Assembly: GCA_029975215.1 (NCBI GenBank)
Contig: JARKPO010000007.1
Location: forward strand, 1 to 64,000
Reading direction: 5' to 3'
Length of the DNA: 64,000 bases
DNA from: Levilinea sp.
GTDB taxonomy: Bacteria > Chloroflexota > Anaerolineae > Anaerolineales > Anaerolineaceae
The position numbers were made by a program, and so were the translations under genes. The notes below the pieces were generated by a model. It did not search any database. It was not told where the DNA came from and was given only the letters and a program-made list of their open reading frames with translations. Below are positions 53,332 through 62,050 of this stretch, piece after piece (the first letter of the stretch is position 1; each line of letters starts with the position of its first letter).

Positions 53332-53371
53332 ATAATCACCTTGCGATTTGTTCTTGTGCTATACTGGAAAC

Positions 53372-53623
53372 ATGCAAGAACGTTCATTCTGGTTATCCTG
53401 GGCGCACAACTTGCAACGTTGGGGGCTGCGTGAACCCGTTGCAGCCTTACTTGAAGCTGGAGGACCGCTGTCGCTTCTCCTGGCGCAGGTGGTCTATTTG
53501 GGTCAACCTCTGTTAAGCGGATCTTCCTCAGCTGGGGCCTGGCAGGCTCTGGCGGAGATGTTGGAAGACCCGCTGCAAACTCGTTCTTTTGCCGCATTTT
53601 TGCGGGAGGAGGAGGTTGCGTAA
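53372..53623 (+). CDS. Small hypothetical protein, first gene of uncharacterised cluster
   Basis: ATG 53372 downstream of 'tgtgctatactgg' promoter-like sequence; 1-nt overlap with next gene. Confidence 0.6.
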   Translation: MQERSFWLSWAHNLQRWGLREPVAALLEAGGPLSLLLAQVVYLGQPLLSGSSSAGAWQALAEMLEDPLQTRSFAAFLREEEVA

Positions 53624-54378
53624 TGGCATTATCCAGTATCCTCGGGATCGGGCTGGTGGGGCTGGGGCTGGCGCTGCTGTTCTTTTTTGCGCTGCCGGGC
53701 CGCCAGCGAGAGGCGCACGCCTGGCGCCCCATCCCGGCCATTCGCCGTCTCCGGCGCGCCATTGGTCTGGCGGTGGAGGACGGCAAGCGGCTGCACATTT
53801 CTTTGGGCAAAGCCAACCTGCTGACGCCGGATAACGGTTCAGCGTTGTCGGCTTTAAGCACCCTGGAGCGCATCGCGCGCATGAGCGTGGTCAGCGACCG
53901 CCCGCCGGTGGTCACCAGTGGGGATGGGGCTTTGGCCGTGCTCAGCCAGGACACCCTGCAGGCCGCCTACCGCACCAGCCACGCCCTGGACCAATATGAC
54001 CCCGACCGCGGCCGCTTGAGCGGGCCGACGGCGCTTTCGTATGTCGCCGGTTCACTGCCCGTCATCCGCGATGAGCAGGTTTCTACCAATATTTTGATGG
54101 GCAACTTTGGCCCGGAAGTGGCGTTGATGACCGAAGCCAGCGAAAAGGCCCGCGCCTTCACCCTGGCGGCCAGCGATTCGCTGTCAGCTCAGGCGGTGTT
54201 ATACGCTGCCGCGGAAGAGACCCTCATCGGCGAAGAACTGTTCGCCGCCCCGGCCTATCTTCAGGCCGGCGCCGCCCACCAGGCCAGTTTGCGCGTTCAA
54301 GACGTGCTGCGCTGGGTGCTGGTGGCCCTGCTGATCTTGGGGGCGCTGCTCAAAATGGCAGGAGTGGATTTGCTATGA
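53623..54378 (+). CDS. Membrane protein of unknown function (DUF6754-like, unverified)
   Basis: N- and C-terminal TM helices, conserved-looking core 'GNFGPEVALMTEASEKARAFTLAASDSLSAQAVLYAAAEETLIGEELFA'. Confidence 0.75.
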   Translation: MALSSILGIGLVGLGLALLFFFALPGRQREAHAWRPIPAIRRLRRAIGLAVEDGKRLHISLGKANLLTPDNGSALSALSTLERIARMSVVSDRPPVVTSGDGALAVLSQDTLQAAYRTSHALDQYDPDRGRLSGPTALSYVAGSLPVIRDEQVSTNILMGNFGPEVALMTEASEKARAFTLAASDSLSAQAVLYAAAEETLIGEELFAAPAYLQAGAAHQASLRVQDVLRWVLVALLILGALLKMAGVDLL

Positions 54379-55001
54379 GATCCCCCGTTACCACTGCCGT
54401 CGCCATTGGGTTAGGTATCGTCGCCCTCCTGGGCTATTTTGTGCCCTTGCCGTTTTTGGTAGATATCCAAAGCCTGCTGCTCAGTTGGGCGGTGATATTG
54501 GCCGCGGTGGCGGCTTTGGTGGCCATTTTCAACCTGGTGCGCGTTCACGTGCGCAAGCTGCGCGGCAGCCCGCCCAAACAGCGCGGAGATGGGTACAGCC
54601 TGCTGGTGCTGATTGGGTTTGCGGTCACTTTCCTGGCGGGGCTGCTGCTGACGCCGGACCATCCTCAGTTTCAGCAGGCGGTTTTGGCGGTGCAAACGCC
54701 GGTAGAAACCAGCCTGATCGCGGTGCTGGCGGTGACCCTGGCGTACGCCAGTCTGCGCCTGCTGCAGCGCCGCCCCAACTGGATGGGCATCCTGTTTGCC
54801 CTCAGCGCGGCCTTTTTCCTGATTCTGGCCAGCGGCGCCCTCTCGGGGCTGCGCGGCCTGCCGCTTTTGGGAGATCTGCTGGGCGTGGTGGAGCGTCTGC
54901 CGCTGGCGGGCGCGCGCGGGCTTTTATTGGGCATCGGCTTAGGCAGCCTCTTGACCGGGCTGCGTATTTTGATGGGCGCGGACCGCCCATATAGTGGGTG
55001 A
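54375..55001 (+). CDS. Multi-TM membrane protein of unknown function
   Basis: About six hydrophobic segments; 4-nt ATGA overlap with upstream gene. Confidence 0.75.
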   Translation: MRSPVTTAVAIGLGIVALLGYFVPLPFLVDIQSLLLSWAVILAAVAALVAIFNLVRVHVRKLRGSPPKQRGDGYSLLVLIGFAVTFLAGLLLTPDHPQFQQAVLAVQTPVETSLIAVLAVTLAYASLRLLQRRPNWMGILFALSAAFFLILASGALSGLRGLPLLGDLLGVVERLPLAGARGLLLGIGLGSLLTGLRILMGADRPYSG

Positions 55002-55003
55002 GC

Positions 55004-57817
55004 ATGGCTGAGAAGCATTGTCCGATTTGCGGAAGCAGCAATACCGAGGCGGCCACCAACTGCCAGTTTTGCGGCGCGCCCTTTGGGGACCTGCCGGCTC
55101 GCCCCGAGCCGGACGATACCCCGGATTGGCTGAAGGATTTCCAATCCACCGACAGCGGCGCCGCAGAACCAGAACCCGCCGCCCCGGCTGAATCGGGCCT
55201 GCCCGATTGGCTCTCCTCCATCCGCCAACGCTCTGCCGCAGAAGAAGCGCCGGGGGTGGAGGGTCTTTTGGGCGCGGAGGAAGAGGAATCCGGCGCGGTG
55301 AAAGCCGACCTGCCCGACTGGCTTTCAGATTTGCGCCCCAGCGCGGCCGAACCGCCCGCCCCAGCGGCGAGCGCGGCTGAACCCGAAGAAGACGACACCG
55401 CCTGGCTGAAGGGCCTGGGCGATTGGCAAAACGGCCCCCTGGGCGGAGATTCCAGCACCTCGGCCACCGAACCTGAGGGGGATGATTGGCTGCGTAATTT
55501 GGGGGGCGGGCTGGACGAGATCCCCGCTGAGCCGCCTTTACCGGTGCAGCCAGCAGGAAACCAGGATTGGCTGGGCGACTTGCGCAATTTGTCAACTGAA
55601 CGCGCTGCTGCCCCCTCAGAAGAACCCTCGGCGTTGGAAGGGCTTCCCTCCTGGTTGGAGGATACCCCCGCACCGCAAACCTCCGCTGCTTCCGAAGACA
55701 ATTTCCAGGATTGGCTGGCGGATGTTCCCGAAGAACTGCCGGCCCAGCCCAGCAGCGCGGCCGAGACCGGGCTGGGGGATTTGCCGGATTGGATGCAGAC
55801 TCCTCCGGCCGCTGACGAGACGCCCATCGCTGCCGGAAACGAGCCAGATTGGCTGAGCGCATTCGCCGCGGAAACCTCCGCGCAGGAGACTCCCGCAGAA
55901 GCCGCCCCTGCCTCAGACGACACCCCCGACTGGCTCAAATCTTTCGCCAGCGAGATCCCCGCGCCAGAAACGCCCGCCGCTGCCGGAAACGAGCCAGATT
56001 GGCTGAGCGCATTCGCCGCGGACACCTCCGCGCAGGAGACTCCCGCAGAAGCCGCCCCTGCGGCTGCAGAGGACGGAACCCCCGACTGGCTGAAAGAATT
56101 CGCCAGCGAGACCCCCGCGCCAGAAACGCCTGCCGCTGCCGGAAACGAGCCGGATTGGCTGAGCGCATTCGCCGCGGATACCTCCGCGCAGGAGACCCCC
56201 GCAGAAGCCGCCCCTGCGGCTGCAGAGGACGGAACTCCCGACTGGCTGAAAGAATTCGCGGCCGACTTCTCTGCTCAGGAAACGCCGGAAGCTGAACCCC
56301 CAGCCCCCGCTTCCCCAGGTGAGACTCGCGTTTTCCAGGGCGAGACGCGCGCATTTGACCTGCCGGAAAGCGAACCGTCCTCCGGCGAGACCGCCGATTG
56401 GCTGCGCGCCTTTGCCAGCGAAGACAGCAGCGTATTCGCCACCCCAACCTCAGACACCGCCCCCATCAGCGGCGAGCCAGTTCCAGCCTTCGCCCTGGGA
56501 GATGGAGCCGATCTGCCCGATTGGCTTTCTGAAGTCGACCTATCGGAAATGAACCTGGAAAGCGACACTTCCGGCGATGCGGCCCTGGCTTCTGCGGATC
56601 AGGTTCCCGATTGGCTGCGAGATAAGGCCAGCCAGGCCGGGGTAGAACTGAGCGGTGAAACTGAGGCTGAAGCGGAAGCCGCAGCCCCTGCAGGCGAACT
56701 GGCCCCGGCGGCGCTGCCTGCCTGGTTGCAGGCCATGCGGCCGGTAGAAGCCGTCATGCAAACCGGGGCCGAAGGCGCGCTGGTGGAAAGTGAACATGTA
56801 GAAAAAGCCGGGCCGCTGGCCGGCATTCAGGGCATTTTGCCCACGCTGGATCTGACCCGCCAATACCGCAAGCCTCCGCGCTATTCGTCCAAGCTAAAAA
56901 CCTCCGAAAAACAGCGCGAACATGCCGAACTGCTGGACGCATTGGTCTCCGGTGAATCTCAGCCGCAGCAAGTGCAGCGCGAATTTGTGCAAGCCCCCCA
57001 ACGGGCCATGCGCATTGGCATCGGCCTGCTGCTGATCCTGGTGGTGGTGCTCACCTACCTGTTCGGCGGCGTCCCGGCGAACCCTGCTGCGCCCGTGGAG
57101 GTGCTGAACTTCAACAACGCCGTGGGCGCGCTGCCCTCAGGCAGCACCGTGCTGCTGGCAGTGGATTATGCCCCGGCCTATTCGGGTGAAATGCGGCTGG
57201 CCGCCACGCGGGTGGTGCAGATGCTCATGGAAAAGGGCCTGCGCCTGGCCCTGGTTTCTACCCAGGTGACCGGGCCGGTGCTGGGCGCGGATCTGCTGCG
57301 CAGCGCCGCGGCGGAACTGCCCGCGGGCAGTTTTAATTTCGATGAACAAAGCGCCAACCTGGGCTATTTGCCGGGCGGCATCGCCTCGCTGCGCGAATTT
57401 GCCAACCAACCGCGCCGGGCCGTCCGCTGGCCGGGCATGTGGGACCGGCCCGCAGTGCAGCAGGTGAACGCTCTGACGGATTTCTCTGCGATTATCGTCC
57501 TGACCGATCAAGTGGAAGGCGGGCGGGCCTGGATGGAACAGGTGCAGCCCCTCTACGGCGAGCGTCCCTTCCTGCTGGTCTCCAGCGCCCAGGCGGCGCC
57601 GGTGCTTCAGGCCTATGTCAACGAGGGTCAGGCGGATGGATTGGTGGCCGGTTTCACCGGCGGCATGGCGTTTGCCGGATTATCCGGGCAGACGCCGGCT
57701 GGTTTAGGGGGATGGTGGGGCAGCTACCGCGCCGGGTTGTTCCTGGCGGTGGTGCTGATCTTCTTGGGGGTGATCCTTCAGGCGCTGATCCGCCTGAGCA
57801 CCCGCCGGAAAGCGTGA
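55004..57817 (+). CDS. Zinc-ribbon membrane protein with long disordered region carrying about 19 (P/x)DWL motifs
   Basis: 'CPICGSSNTEAATNCQFCGAPFG' N-terminus; repeats PDWLSAF/PDWLKEF; TM 'IGLLLILVVVLTYLFGGV'; C-terminal extracytoplasmic domain and final TM. Confidence 0.8.
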   Translation: MAEKHCPICGSSNTEAATNCQFCGAPFGDLPARPEPDDTPDWLKDFQSTDSGAAEPEPAAPAESGLPDWLSSIRQRSAAEEAPGVEGLLGAEEEESGAVKADLPDWLSDLRPSAAEPPAPAASAAEPEEDDTAWLKGLGDWQNGPLGGDSSTSATEPEGDDWLRNLGGGLDEIPAEPPLPVQPAGNQDWLGDLRNLSTERAAAPSEEPSALEGLPSWLEDTPAPQTSAASEDNFQDWLADVPEELPAQPSSAAETGLGDLPDWMQTPPAADETPIAAGNEPDWLSAFAAETSAQETPAEAAPASDDTPDWLKSFASEIPAPETPAAAGNEPDWLSAFAADTSAQETPAEAAPAAAEDGTPDWLKEFASETPAPETPAAAGNEPDWLSAFAADTSAQETPAEAAPAAAEDGTPDWLKEFAADFSAQETPEAEPPAPASPGETRVFQGETRAFDLPESEPSSGETADWLRAFASEDSSVFATPTSDTAPISGEPVPAFALGDGADLPDWLSEVDLSEMNLESDTSGDAALASADQVPDWLRDKASQAGVELSGETEAEAEAAAPAGELAPAALPAWLQAMRPVEAVMQTGAEGALVESEHVEKAGPLAGIQGILPTLDLTRQYRKPPRYSSKLKTSEKQREHAELLDALVSGESQPQQVQREFVQAPQRAMRIGIGLLLILVVVLTYLFGGVPANPAAPVEVLNFNNAVGALPSGSTVLLAVDYAPAYSGEMRLAATRVVQMLMEKGLRLALVSTQVTGPVLGADLLRSAAAELPAGSFNFDEQSANLGYLPGGIASLREFANQPRRAVRWPGMWDRPAVQQVNALTDFSAIIVLTDQVEGGRAWMEQVQPLYGERPFLLVSSAQAAPVLQAYVNEGQADGLVAGFTGGMAFAGLSGQTPAGLGGWWGSYRAGLFLAVVLIFLGVILQALIRLSTRRKA
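55831..56262 (+). repeat. In-frame tandem DNA repeat, about 150/156-bp units, about 2.8 copies
   Basis: 'tgccggaaacgagcc(a/g)gattggctgagcgcattcgccgcgg' recurs at 55831, 55981 and 56137 with the intervening sequence largely conserved. Confidence 0.9.
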
Positions 57818-57824
57818 GGCCCGG

Positions 57825-58490
57825 ATGTCAATGGATTTGATTTGGACGGCGGTGGGCTTTTTGCTGACGGTGTGCGTGTTGAGCTACCTGTTTGGGGATA
57901 ACCCGCTCTTCCGCCTGGCTACGTCTCTATTCGTGGGCGTGGCGGCGGGGTATGCGGCTGTGCTTCTGATTTATCAGGTGCTGCTGCCGCGCCTGGTGCT
58001 GCCTTTGCTGCAAGGCTCGCTGGCCGAACGCGGCCTGCTGGTCATCCCTCTGGTGCTCAGCGTATTACTGCTCTTCAAGCTCTCTCCGCGCTTCACCCGC
58101 CTGGGCAACCTCTCGATGGGAGTGATTGTGGGCGTGGGCGCGGGGGTGTTGGTGGGCGGCACGGTGTTGGGAACCCTGCTGGGCCAAACCCGCGCAGCGG
58201 TGGACGCCTTTGCCCTGCGGGGCACGGCCAGCCCGATGGTGCTCTTATTCGAGGCCGTTCTGTTTCTGATCGGCACGGTATCCACCCTGGTGTACTTCCA
58301 TTTTGGCGTCAAGCCGCGCCCCAACCAGCCCGCCCGGCGGCCTTCATGGATGGAATTCACGGCGAGCATTGGTCAGGTGTTCCTGGCAGTGACTTTGGGC
58401 GCTTTGTTTGCCGGGGTGTTCGCCGCGGCACTGGCCGCATTAATTGACCGTGCGGATTTCCTCTTCCGTGCGGTTCAAATGCTATTCTGA
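57825..58490 (+). CDS. Multi-TM membrane protein of unknown function
   Basis: 221 aa, about six TM segments; in the same operon-like array. Confidence 0.75.
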   Translation: MSMDLIWTAVGFLLTVCVLSYLFGDNPLFRLATSLFVGVAAGYAAVLLIYQVLLPRLVLPLLQGSLAERGLLVIPLVLSVLLLFKLSPRFTRLGNLSMGVIVGVGAGVLVGGTVLGTLLGQTRAAVDAFALRGTASPMVLLFEAVLFLIGTVSTLVYFHFGVKPRPNQPARRPSWMEFTASIGQVFLAVTLGALFAGVFAAALAALIDRADFLFRAVQMLF

Positions 58491-58499
58491 GTGTAGCCC

Positions 58500-60227
58500 A
58501 TGAGCCCTTCGATCATTGATGCTCAATCCATCCTGGCGGTTGAAATTGGCACGGTCACGACCCGCGCGCTCTTGTTTGACGTGGTGGAGGGGCAGTACCG
58601 TTTCATCGCCCAGGGCAGCGCCCCCAGCACGGTCAACGCGCCCTTCCGTGAAGCCGGGGAGGGCATTCACCTGGCGGTGAACCGCCTGGAAGAAATCACC
58701 GGCCGCACCTTGATGAACCTGAAGGGCGAGTTGATTCTGCCAGTGCAAAGCGACAACAGCGGTGTGGACCGGCTGGTGCTCACCTACACCGCCGGACCGG
58801 CGCTGCGCGTGGTGGTGGCGGGGCTGCTGGCGGATGTTTCCCTGGAAAGTGCACGCAACCTGGCGGCCACCCTGCCGGTGCAGGTGGTGGAAACACTGGG
58901 CCTCAACGATACCCGCAGCCTGGATTTGCAGATGCAGGCCCTGATCGCGGCCGAGCCAGATCTGGTGCTGCTGGCGGGCGGCAGTGAACACGGCGCCAGC
59001 CGCTCGGTGTTTAAGCTGGCAGAGCTGATCAGCCTGGCCTACCGTGTGCTGCCGCCAGACCGCCGCCCGCATGTGCTCTACGCGGGCAATCAGGCCCTGG
59101 CCAAAAAGATCAAAGAGGGCCTGGAGCGCACGGTACACACGCTGACCGCCCCCAATGTACGCCCGTCGGTGGATGTTGAAGACCTGGCTCCCGCTGAAAG
59201 CGCGCTCAGCGAAGCAGCGGCCAATATCCGCTACGCACAGATCGGCGGTCTGCAAAATTGGGGTTCCATCAGCAGCGCCCTGCCCTTGCCGGGTTCATTG
59301 GCCTTTGGGCGCATGATCCGCTTCCTTAGTCACATTGGGGACGCGGTGAAGGGCGTGTTGGGGGTGCAATTGGGCTCCGGCAGCACCACCCTGGCGATGG
59401 GCAAGGGCGGTAATCTGGCGCTGGAAGTCTTCCCCTACAGCAGCGGCCGCGGTGCTTCTTTGGTGTTGGAGCACAGCGCCTTAGAAGACATCACCCAATG
59501 GCTGCCGATGCACATGCCCGATGTGGTGGCGCGAGACTATCTGGTGCAGAAAACCCTTTACCCCCAGGTGATGCCCACCACCAGCGAGACGCTGGCTCTG
59601 GAATTGGCGCTGGCGCGCCAGGCCCTGCGCCTTTCCATGCAGCAGATGCTGGCCCGCCACCCGCTGTACAACCTATCCTACGAGCCCATTCTGGCGGGCG
59701 GGGCGGTGTTGACCCAGGCCCCCCAGCCAGCCCACGCCCTGTTGGCGCTCTTAGACGGACTGCAGCCGGTGGGGGTGACCACCCTGTTCCTGGATCAAAA
59801 CGAACTGCTCACCAGCCTGGGGGCCGCCGCGCAGATCAACTCGCTGCTGCCCGTTCAGGTGATCGAATCCGGCGCGCTGCTCAACCTGGGCACGGTCATC
59901 TGCCCGGTGAGCGACGCCCGCTACGGCACGCCCATTCTGCGCGCCCGCCTGGAATATGAGCGCGGGGGTGAAAATGTGGTGGAGGTGCGTCAGGGTTCTT
60001 TGGTGACTTTGCCCCTGCAAAATGGGCAGGTGGCCAATCTGCACCTCCAGCCTTTGCGCCGTGTGCAGATTGACCCGCGCGGCAAGCCCGGCCCGGCCAA
60101 ATTCCAAATCGTGGGCGGGGCGTGCGGTGCGGTGATTGACGCGCGCGGCCGGCCGCTGGTTCTGCCCAAAGATTCGGCCCGCCGCCGCGAGATGATCAAG
60201 AAATGGAGCCTGGCTTTCGGCATCTAG
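58500..60227 (+). CDS. Glutamate mutase L (MutL/GlmL)-family ASKHA-fold protein
   Basis: 'ILAVEIGTVTTRALLFDVVEGQYRFIAQG', 'LVLLAGGSEHG', 'GVLGVQLGSGSTTLAM'. Confidence 0.8.
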   Translation: MSPSIIDAQSILAVEIGTVTTRALLFDVVEGQYRFIAQGSAPSTVNAPFREAGEGIHLAVNRLEEITGRTLMNLKGELILPVQSDNSGVDRLVLTYTAGPALRVVVAGLLADVSLESARNLAATLPVQVVETLGLNDTRSLDLQMQALIAAEPDLVLLAGGSEHGASRSVFKLAELISLAYRVLPPDRRPHVLYAGNQALAKKIKEGLERTVHTLTAPNVRPSVDVEDLAPAESALSEAAANIRYAQIGGLQNWGSISSALPLPGSLAFGRMIRFLSHIGDAVKGVLGVQLGSGSTTLAMGKGGNLALEVFPYSSGRGASLVLEHSALEDITQWLPMHMPDVVARDYLVQKTLYPQVMPTTSETLALELALARQALRLSMQQMLARHPLYNLSYEPILAGGAVLTQAPQPAHALLALLDGLQPVGVTTLFLDQNELLTSLGAAAQINSLLPVQVIESGALLNLGTVICPVSDARYGTPILRARLEYERGGENVVEVRQGSLVTLPLQNGQVANLHLQPLRRVQIDPRGKPGPAKFQIVGGACGAVIDARGRPLVLPKDSARRREMIKKWSLAFGI

Positions 60228-60294
60228 CCCAGCAACTGCGGCTGATGTGCAGATTGGTACAAAGATTGCACCTTATCCTTTGGGATTAAACACT

Positions 60295-61347
60295 ATGCAA
60301 GCACCTGTCACCCACATTTTGGCCCTCACCAACCTGCGCCGGGCGCGGCTGCTTCCGGCGGCAGGCAAAGTGTTGGTCAAGCAAGGTCAAAAGGTTTCCC
60401 CCAACGATGTGATTGCGGAAACCGTGCTGCACCCGCGCCACATGGTGTTTGACGTGCGCCAGGCGCTGGGCATCACCCGTCCGGCGCAGCTCAGCCAGGC
60501 CATCGAGCGCCGCGTGGGCGACAAGGTGGAGGTGGATGACGTGCTGGCGCGCTCTGGCGGCCTGTTTAAGCGCGTCCTGCGCGCACCGGTGGCCGGACAG
60601 ATTTCCATCATCGCCGGTGGGCGGATTGTGATGGAGGTGGACAGCCCCCTCTTCCAACTGCGCGCCGGACTGGCAGGCATCATCACCGAGATCATCCCCG
60701 AACGCGGCGCCATTCTGGAAGCCAGCGGGGCCTTGGTGCAGGGGGCCTGGGGCAACGGGCGTATCGATTCCGGCGTGCTGCTTTCGCTGGCCGCCGCCCC
60801 CGAAGATATGCTCACCCGCGAGCGCCTGGATGTGAGCATGCGCGGGGCGGTGGTGGTGGCCGGGCACTGTGCCCAGGCAGATGCGATCCGTGCGGCCAAC
60901 GAGCTGCCCCTGCGCGGCCTGATTTTGGGCAGCGCCACGGCGGATCTGCTGCCGGCCCTGCAAACCGCGCTCTTTCCCATCCTCTTAACCGAAGGTTTCG
61001 GCCGCATTCCCATGAATCTGGCCGCCCACCGCATTTTGACCACCAACGAGAAGCGCGACACCGCGGTCAACGCCACCATGTGGAACGCATTTACCGGCGA
61101 GCGCCCCGAAGTGCTCATCCCCCTGCCCGCCGCAGGCAGCGTGCCCGCCGAAAGCGTCACCCTGAAAGAGGGCCTGCACGTGCGCATTTTGGGGATGCAG
61201 CAAGCCGCGCGGGTGGGGACGATTGTGTCCCTGCCGGCAGAGCTGGTGACTTTGCCGAACGGCGTGCGCGCCCGCGTGGCGCAGGTCAAATTGGAAAACG
61301 ATGAGCAGTTCGCCGTGCCGCTATGCAATCTGGATGTGCTAGAATAA
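60295..61347 (+). CDS. Uncharacterised protein with barrel-sandwich-hybrid-like repeats and C-terminal small beta domain
   Basis: 'GKVLVKQGQKVSPNDVIAET' and 'LRAPVAGQISIIAGGRIVMEV' lipoyl/RnfC-like beta patterns; ATG 60295. Confidence 0.65.
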   Translation: MQAPVTHILALTNLRRARLLPAAGKVLVKQGQKVSPNDVIAETVLHPRHMVFDVRQALGITRPAQLSQAIERRVGDKVEVDDVLARSGGLFKRVLRAPVAGQISIIAGGRIVMEVDSPLFQLRAGLAGIITEIIPERGAILEASGALVQGAWGNGRIDSGVLLSLAAAPEDMLTRERLDVSMRGAVVVAGHCAQADAIRAANELPLRGLILGSATADLLPALQTALFPILLTEGFGRIPMNLAAHRILTTNEKRDTAVNATMWNAFTGERPEVLIPLPAAGSVPAESVTLKEGLHVRILGMQQAARVGTIVSLPAELVTLPNGVRARVAQVKLENDEQFAVPLCNLDVLE

Positions 61348-61423
61348 TCTTGCACGGGCCTGCCGTGCCCTGGCAGTGCGCCGGGCGGGGCTGTCTGGCA
61401 ACCTGAATTGGAGGAGGACAAGC

Positions 61424-62050
61424 ATGAGCAACTTTGACGACAGCGTTTTTGAGGGTTTTGAAGAAGAGCCCCCCGAAGCTCCCAAAGAAAGTAAGGGCGG
61501 CGGCAACAACAACCGCACGTTCTTGATCGCCGTGGGCATCATTGCCGCAGTCACCGTTTTGGTGGTGATCGTGGGCGGCATCTTGCTGGTGGCGCTGCGT
61601 TCCGGCGGAACGAGCACCGCCATGCAGCAGGCCGCGCAGATCAACGCGCAGAACACGGCCACTTCGATGGCGGCCACCAGTGTGGCGGCCACCGAGGCCT
61701 TCATGCGCATTCCCACCAACACCCCCCAGCCCACCGCCACGCCCGAACCGACCAAAACGCCGGTAGTGGTCTTCCCCACCGACACCCCGCAGCCCACCGA
61801 AGAACCTCCGCTGGCAGCTGCAGACGCGGCAGCAGTGGAATCTTCGGCGCGCACGCAGACGGTGGCGGCCTTGCTGACCCAGGCCGCGGCGGGCACCACC
61901 CCCACCGTTCCCGGCCCCACGCCCACCGCCCTGCCCAATACCGGCTTCATGGATGAAGTCGGCCTGCCGGGCATGCTGGGCCTGTCGGCGCTGCTGATTG
62001 TGGTCATCTTCCTGGCGCGCCGCCTGCGCTTCTCGGCCCACCAATCCTAA
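61424..62050 (+). CDS. Small anchored protein, N-terminal TM, PT-rich linker, C-terminal LPNTG-TM-Arg tail
   Basis: '...PTALPNTGFMDEVGLPGMLGLSALLIVVIFLARRLRFSAHQS'; ATG 61424 after 'ggaggagga'. Confidence 0.75.
   Translation: MSNFDDSVFEGFEEEPPEAPKESKGGGNNNRTFLIAVGIIAAVTVLVVIVGGILLVALRSGGTSTAMQQAAQINAQNTATSMAATSVAATEAFMRIPTNTPQPTATPEPTKTPVVVFPTDTPQPTEEPPLAAADAAAVESSARTQTVAALLTQAAAGTTPTVPGPTPTALPNTGFMDEVGLPGMLGLSALLIVVIFLARRLRFSAHQS

Follow-up and report, generated by a model that had tools for sequence, protein, structure and literature searches.

Eukaryotes offer well-known examples of conserved multivalent motif systems; in bacteria, such systems have seldom been described. Pex5 has several Trp-centred motifs in a disordered N-terminal region, where WxxxF/Y repeats bind Pex14, and it carries TPR repeats in the same protein. 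The Rubisco-binding motif, [DN]W[RK]xx[LIVA], is also centred on a Trp, in this case one that follows Asp or Asn. In the Chlamydomonas pyrenoid, one short motif is repeated on a soluble linker, EPYC1, and is also present on membrane proteins, and it is proposed to assemble the Rubisco matrix and to tether it (PMC10473226).

A similar layout was found in the locus of Levilinea sp. analyzed here, where a predicted membrane protein, g3, has a Trp-centred motif repeated in a disordered region, and a predicted soluble protein encoded elsewhere in the genome repeats the same motif. The window, i.e., the whole stretch of DNA that was analyzed, has 64,000 nucleotides. The likeness to the EPYC1 system has its limits: Arg or Lys follows Trp in the Rubisco-binding motif, whereas every one of the 19 motifs in the window has Leu or Met and never Arg or Lys at this position (83% Leu in the family), about 70 copies are reached here, and the two systems belong to different kingdoms with no sign of common descent. 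Pex5 resembles this case in combining Trp-centred motifs in a disordered region with TPR repeats, which are found here in the partner protein, and Phe stands at +4 in 8 of the 19 window motifs. However, there is no conserved F/Y at +4 in the family, where this position is mostly Leu or Ile and is lost in the largest arrays; moreover, the conserved core is P-x-W-L, and there is no peroxisomal context. Zinc-ribbon membrane proteins of the PF13248 (Zn_ribbon_3) and PF12773 (DZR) types share with g3 the N-terminal CxxC...CxxC, a disordered stretch and TM segments, but g3 scores under the curated cut-offs and its external domain matches no Pfam family. In the open-access literature, PDWL was not found together with Chloroflexi, and the term 'DWL motif' was found only for plant enzymes and oomycete effectors.

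The array gene and its operon

The gene for g3 lies within a group of eight genes, listed below with their positions in the window and their strand.

53348-62047, + strand: eight-gene operon g0-g7, with the array gene g3 as the fourth
53348-53623, + strand: g0, small protein of about 91 aa, conserved in place
53623-54378, + strand: g1, DUF6754 protein (PF20539, 102 bits)
54375-55001, + strand: g2, membrane protein of 208 aa, conserved in place
54998-57817, + strand: g3, array protein, 939 aa from the GTG at 54998 or 937 aa from the ATG at 55004
57825-58490, + strand: g4, membrane protein of 221 aa, conserved in place
58500-60227, + strand: g5, MutL/GlmL-related protein of 575 aa (PF13941, 178 bits)
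60247-61347, + strand: g6, 366 aa, weak barrel-sandwich (RnfC_N/biotinyl-lipoyl) and KOW-like similarity, conserved in place
61424-62047, + strand: g7, N-terminal TM segment, Pro/Thr-rich stretch, LPNTG and C-terminal TM segment (LPXTG_anchor, TIGR01167)

The ATG at 55004 was favoured as the start of g3 because the orthologues begin MAE/MAD-CP-like. No family was above the cut-off for g3 in Pfam or NCBIfam searches; the DUF6754 and MutL/GlmL families were matched above the Pfam cut-off by its neighbours g1 and g5, but not by the array protein. The g5 protein was far under the GlmL equivalog cut-off. A structure model of the DUF6754 protein was too poor to be used (pLDDT 48) and was set aside. 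When the profile of g6 was searched, weak matches to KOW domains (SPT5, NusG and L24) were obtained, along with one, at 6.6e-7, to a segment containing WGNG in a phage-type lysozyme (5i8l). The g7 protein resembles an LPXTG-type sorting signal (17.2 against LPXTG_anchor, cut-off 15.9), and its gene is kept beside the operon in most order-level loci.

The nearest named relative was Levilinea saccharolytica, with 97% identity over the C-terminal 315 residues of g3. A single-sequence search detected this C-terminal part in 87 of 101 relatives; with a profile, it was recovered from 89 of 150 genomes of the class and 59 of 251 genomes of the phylum, almost always as a single copy. In-frame stops flagged in some of the class-level matches were ordinary gene ends in the loci read (L139 and L169 excluded). 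The order g0, g1, g2, g3, g4, g5, g6, g7 was observed in nearly all the Chloroflexota loci fetched, once contig ends were allowed for. Families f75, f85, f111 and f114, which we take to belong to the class Chloroflexia, had g0-g5, and family f71 had g0-g6. In other families, the genes on either side of the operon resembled housekeeping genes, and no partner was found among them. We found no published function for this operon, and DUF6754 is unmentioned in the open-access papers searched.

Parts and predicted topology of g3

The following parts were distinguished within g3.

55019-55072, + strand: N-terminal zinc ribbon, residues 8-25, C-x2-C-x10-C-x2-C
55118-56740, + strand: acidic disordered array with 19 xW[LM] motifs, Trp at residues 44-576
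55820-56259, + strand: recent tandem duplication within the array, 156-bp unit in 2.9 copies
56810-56842, + strand: conserved juxtamembrane segment GPLAGIQGILP, residues 605-615 (family form GPLAGxxGxLP)
57014-57070, + strand: predicted TM helix 1, residues 673-691, from hydropathy and charge pattern
57071-57733, + strand: predicted external alpha/beta (Rossmann-like) domain, residues 692-912
57734-57790, + strand: predicted TM helix 2, residues 913-931, followed by RLSTRRKA

A preliminary description of this DNA, made from its letters and open reading frames, had called g3 a zinc-ribbon membrane protein and suggested that it has a multivalent docking array on the cytoplasmic side and a second domain outside the membrane. 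The ribbon is plain in the sequence as CPIC-x10-CQFC with its four Cys, though its score against PF13248 was 14.7 bits and the gathering score is 27; the CxxC...CxxC pattern was present at the N-terminus of 99 of the 127 family members. Around the TM segments, the mean number of Lys plus Arg was 3.4 before and 0.6 after helix 1, and 1.2 before and 3.4 after helix 2; therefore, both ends of g3 are predicted to be cytoplasmic. Such a positive-inside pattern was observed in 101 of 125 family members and, along with the zinc ribbon, it supports the arrangement first proposed.

An AlphaFold2 model of the external domain, built from three sequences, gave alternating alpha and beta elements in a Rossmann-like arrangement at moderate confidence (pLDDT 66.5). 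No significant relative was found when this model was compared with the PDB (weak matches, best E 5e-3), and the sequence of the domain gave nothing significant in Pfam and PDB sequence searches. A kinship of this domain with g1 was considered and rejected, as it showed no relation against the g1 profile. In family f71 (L171, L173, L174 and L175), g3 has only 292-310 aa and consists of the external domain nearly alone, with the tail, the array and the zinc ribbon all absent from an otherwise similar operon. The domain is therefore the core of the family, and the array is an optional addition.

Motif content of the array in the window

Residues 31-612 of g3 contain 20 Trp, and 19 of these are found in xW[LM] (16 in DW[LM]); the one outside the motif is W143. 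In 20,000 composition-preserving shuffles of the same region, the mean number of motifs was 1.8 for xW[LM] and 0.16 for DW[LM], with maxima of 8 and 3, respectively. The count of about nineteen xDWL-type motifs in the preliminary description was thus reproduced at the same place, far over the shuffled sequences. The name xDWL suits the 16 window motifs with Asp before Trp, but it does not describe the family, where the core is [LVI]-P-x-W-L, with Pro at -2 in 72% and Asp at -1 in 50% of the cases. Nor could the regular spacing reported for Trp be confirmed, since it was found to be loose, with 20-52 residues between successive motifs. A two-motif unit of 156 bp, with a 93% match between copies, covers only about 6 of the 19 motifs; recent local duplication, one of the points named beforehand on which the preliminary description could fail, explains only part of the array. 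An example of the motif as a 12-residue peptide is ADLPDWLSDLRP.

Conservation of the motif across the family

A profile of the motif was built from the Trp found upstream of the C-terminal 340 residues in 127 family members, weighted per protein. The motif, with L, M, I, V or F after Trp, accounted for 1418 of the 1589 Trp (89%), and the consensus was [ED]-[LVI]-P-[DE]-W-L-x-x-[LI]-R. Upstream of Trp, the profile had E/D at -4, L/V/I at -3, P at -2 (0.72) and D/E at -1 (0.66); downstream, it had L at +1 (0.83), L/I at +4 (0.47, with L 0.32 and I 0.15; F 0.05) and R at +5 (0.30). The information dropped to background beyond about -5 and +5. The median spacing was 29 residues (quartiles 22-39). 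Copy number ranged from 0 to about 70 and rose with tail length (r = 0.75); many orthologues had very short arrays of 2-5 motifs, sister species differed in having 20 and 27 copies, and L177 and L179 showed extreme tandem duplication. The hydrophobic residue at +4 and the Arg at +5 were lost in the largest arrays (WLQEAEP, WLRAEEP), so that the motif cannot be the same fixed pocket-filler in every array.

Among 24 pairs of orthologues, identity was 88% in the P/W/L core and 48% in the linkers. Because the core had been defined by Trp, the alignments were redone with Trp masked, and the values were then 0.89 for W, 0.93 for P at -2 (linker P 0.65), 0.88 for L at +1 (linker L 0.52), 0.80 for D at -1 (linker D 0.44) and 0.94 for R at +5 (linker R 0.45). 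Where the core residues were identical, their codons were synonymously different in 36% of the cases, and the motif cores are therefore old enough for the DNA to have diverged. We read these comparisons as a sign of purifying selection on a short motif within the fast-changing tail of g3. Conservation of the motif with varying linkers had been named beforehand as another point on which the preliminary description could fail, and it was borne out in orthologues from across the phylum.

A second array in a TPR protein

The genome was scanned at the DNA level for [LVI]PxWL-like and P[DE]WL patterns, which few-motif or off-consensus arrays would escape; a strict pattern, [LVI]P[DE]WLxx[LIV]R, was too narrow and was dropped. 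The scan gave two dense in-frame clusters, g3 and L211:7477-11052 on contig C73. The latter encodes a predicted soluble protein of 1191 aa, with TPR domains at both ends and a disordered middle that contains the motif array. Its pooled consensus, L-P-D-W-L-x-E-L, is the same motif as in g3; the protein also contains a DSAFAWLESLAARQGAEEGLL-like unit three times. Relatives of this TPR protein are present across the phylum, and a sigma-70 gene adjoins the TPR gene in close relatives only. In families f75, f85, f111 and f114 (L242-L248), the middle of the TPR protein has no PxWL and repeats PFSLEELGLSPEEIA-like units instead (11-27 counted); the repeat that replaces PxWL is PFSLEEL, whereas g3 of the same families keeps PxWL. 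The sequences thus point to an apparent motif swap in the orthologous TPR protein.

To compare the two proteins, an array was defined as at least two motifs, either PxWL or, in the TPR protein, PF[ST]L, the latter being included after the data had been seen. Both arrays were present in 27 of 43 genomes, only that of g3 in 1, only that of the TPR protein in 1, and neither in 14. With PxWL as the only motif and the seven genomes of the four families above removed, the numbers were 20, 1, 1 and 14. On a tree of the g3 C-terminus and g5, each of the two traits requires 7 changes when mapped separately, whereas 8 suffice for both jointly, figures that come from hand-chosen genomes, with some TPR proteins partial, and from one tree with no support test of its branches. 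Long tails could also co-vary for reasons other than a shared function. The motif numbers of g3 and the TPR protein gave a raw Spearman coefficient of 0.07; this is explained by the different TPR motif of the same four families, and presence or absence was therefore used for the comparison.

Discussion

The many motif copies conserved above their linkers, and the same motif in a second, co-occurring protein, are features of multivalent short-linear-motif scaffolds. The reading that we favour, with a probability of roughly 0.55, is that g3 acts as a membrane-tethered multivalent docking scaffold and that it and the TPR protein have a receptor or network in common. The g3 protein would cross the membrane twice, with the zinc ribbon and the acidic disordered tail in the cytoplasm and the alpha/beta domain outside. 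A single [ED]-[LVI]-P-x-W-L(-x-x-[LI]-R) unit would dock its partner weakly, probably as a short turn or helix that inserts its Trp and Leu into a pocket; the many units together would provide avidity and would concentrate a cytoplasmic partner, in many copies, at the membrane complex that the operon encodes. Given that the TPR protein has the same motif and that the two arrays are present or absent jointly, the most likely options are a common receptor for both proteins or binding of the motifs of one by the TPR domains of the other; the TPR protein would present the same sites in solution, and the outcome may be a membrane-tethered network at the envelope complex of the operon. Several observations count against this reading: the residues at +4 and +5 are lost in the largest arrays, the TPR proteins of the four families carry PFSLEEL in place of PxWL, and some genomes keep the domain and the operon with no array at all.

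Among the alternatives, one that we consider unlikely is that the Trp-Leu units associate weakly with one another, so that the two array proteins would form a membrane-bound dense phase with no dedicated receptor. The aromatic stickers, the acidic Pro/Ala-rich spacers and the scaling of copies with tail length (r = 0.75) fit sticker-spacer behaviour, as does a motif common to both array proteins, but the context of P at -2, D/E at -1, L at +1 and R at +5 is conserved beyond the needs of a generic sticker, and arrays of only 2-5 motifs are found in many orthologues. A receptor within the operon, with the array docking the MutL-like, ASKHA-type g5 (or g0) and concentrating it at the membrane complex, appears quite improbable. 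In its favour, g5 is the operon's large predicted soluble protein and occurs in nearly all loci, also where the arrays are at their largest. But g0 and g5 occur just as regularly in the array-less f71, and the idea leaves the co-occurrence with an unlinked TPR array unexplained.

The least likely alternatives, both very improbable, are contact with the membrane surface and neutral expansion. Insertion of the Trp-Leu units into the inner leaflet, keeping the tail at the membrane surface, would suit adjacent Trp and Leu, typical of interfacial anchoring, in a protein already at the membrane, but the motif has strongly acidic surroundings (E/D at -4 and -1), which is unfavourable at an anionic membrane, and the same motif is found in the soluble TPR protein. 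A low-complexity tail with functionless Trp units, lengthened by slippage and duplication, would agree with the tandem duplications in the window, their extremes in L177 and L179, and the 20 and 27 copies of the sister species, but not with a core conserved well above the linkers over many synonymous changes, nor with a consensus common to the whole phylum and to the unrelated TPR protein.

The conserved motif system itself is real and, as far as we could find in the open-access literature, it has no published description. We propose only tentatively, as a possibility that may well prove wrong, that Chloroflexota own a motif-addressed scaffold in which membrane-tethered and soluble arrays share the [LVI]PxWL address and together assemble, on an envelope complex found throughout the phylum, a hub or condensate anchored to the membrane; in its layout of soluble linker and membrane tether, this would be a bacterial counterpart of the pyrenoid. 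The PxWL system is phylum-wide, reaches up to about 70 copies, changes fast in copy number and links two unrelated proteins. The array-less g3 of family f71 gives a natural reference against which the contribution of the array could be judged, and the motif, as one 12-residue peptide, provides a testable entry into an eight-gene operon of Chloroflexota.
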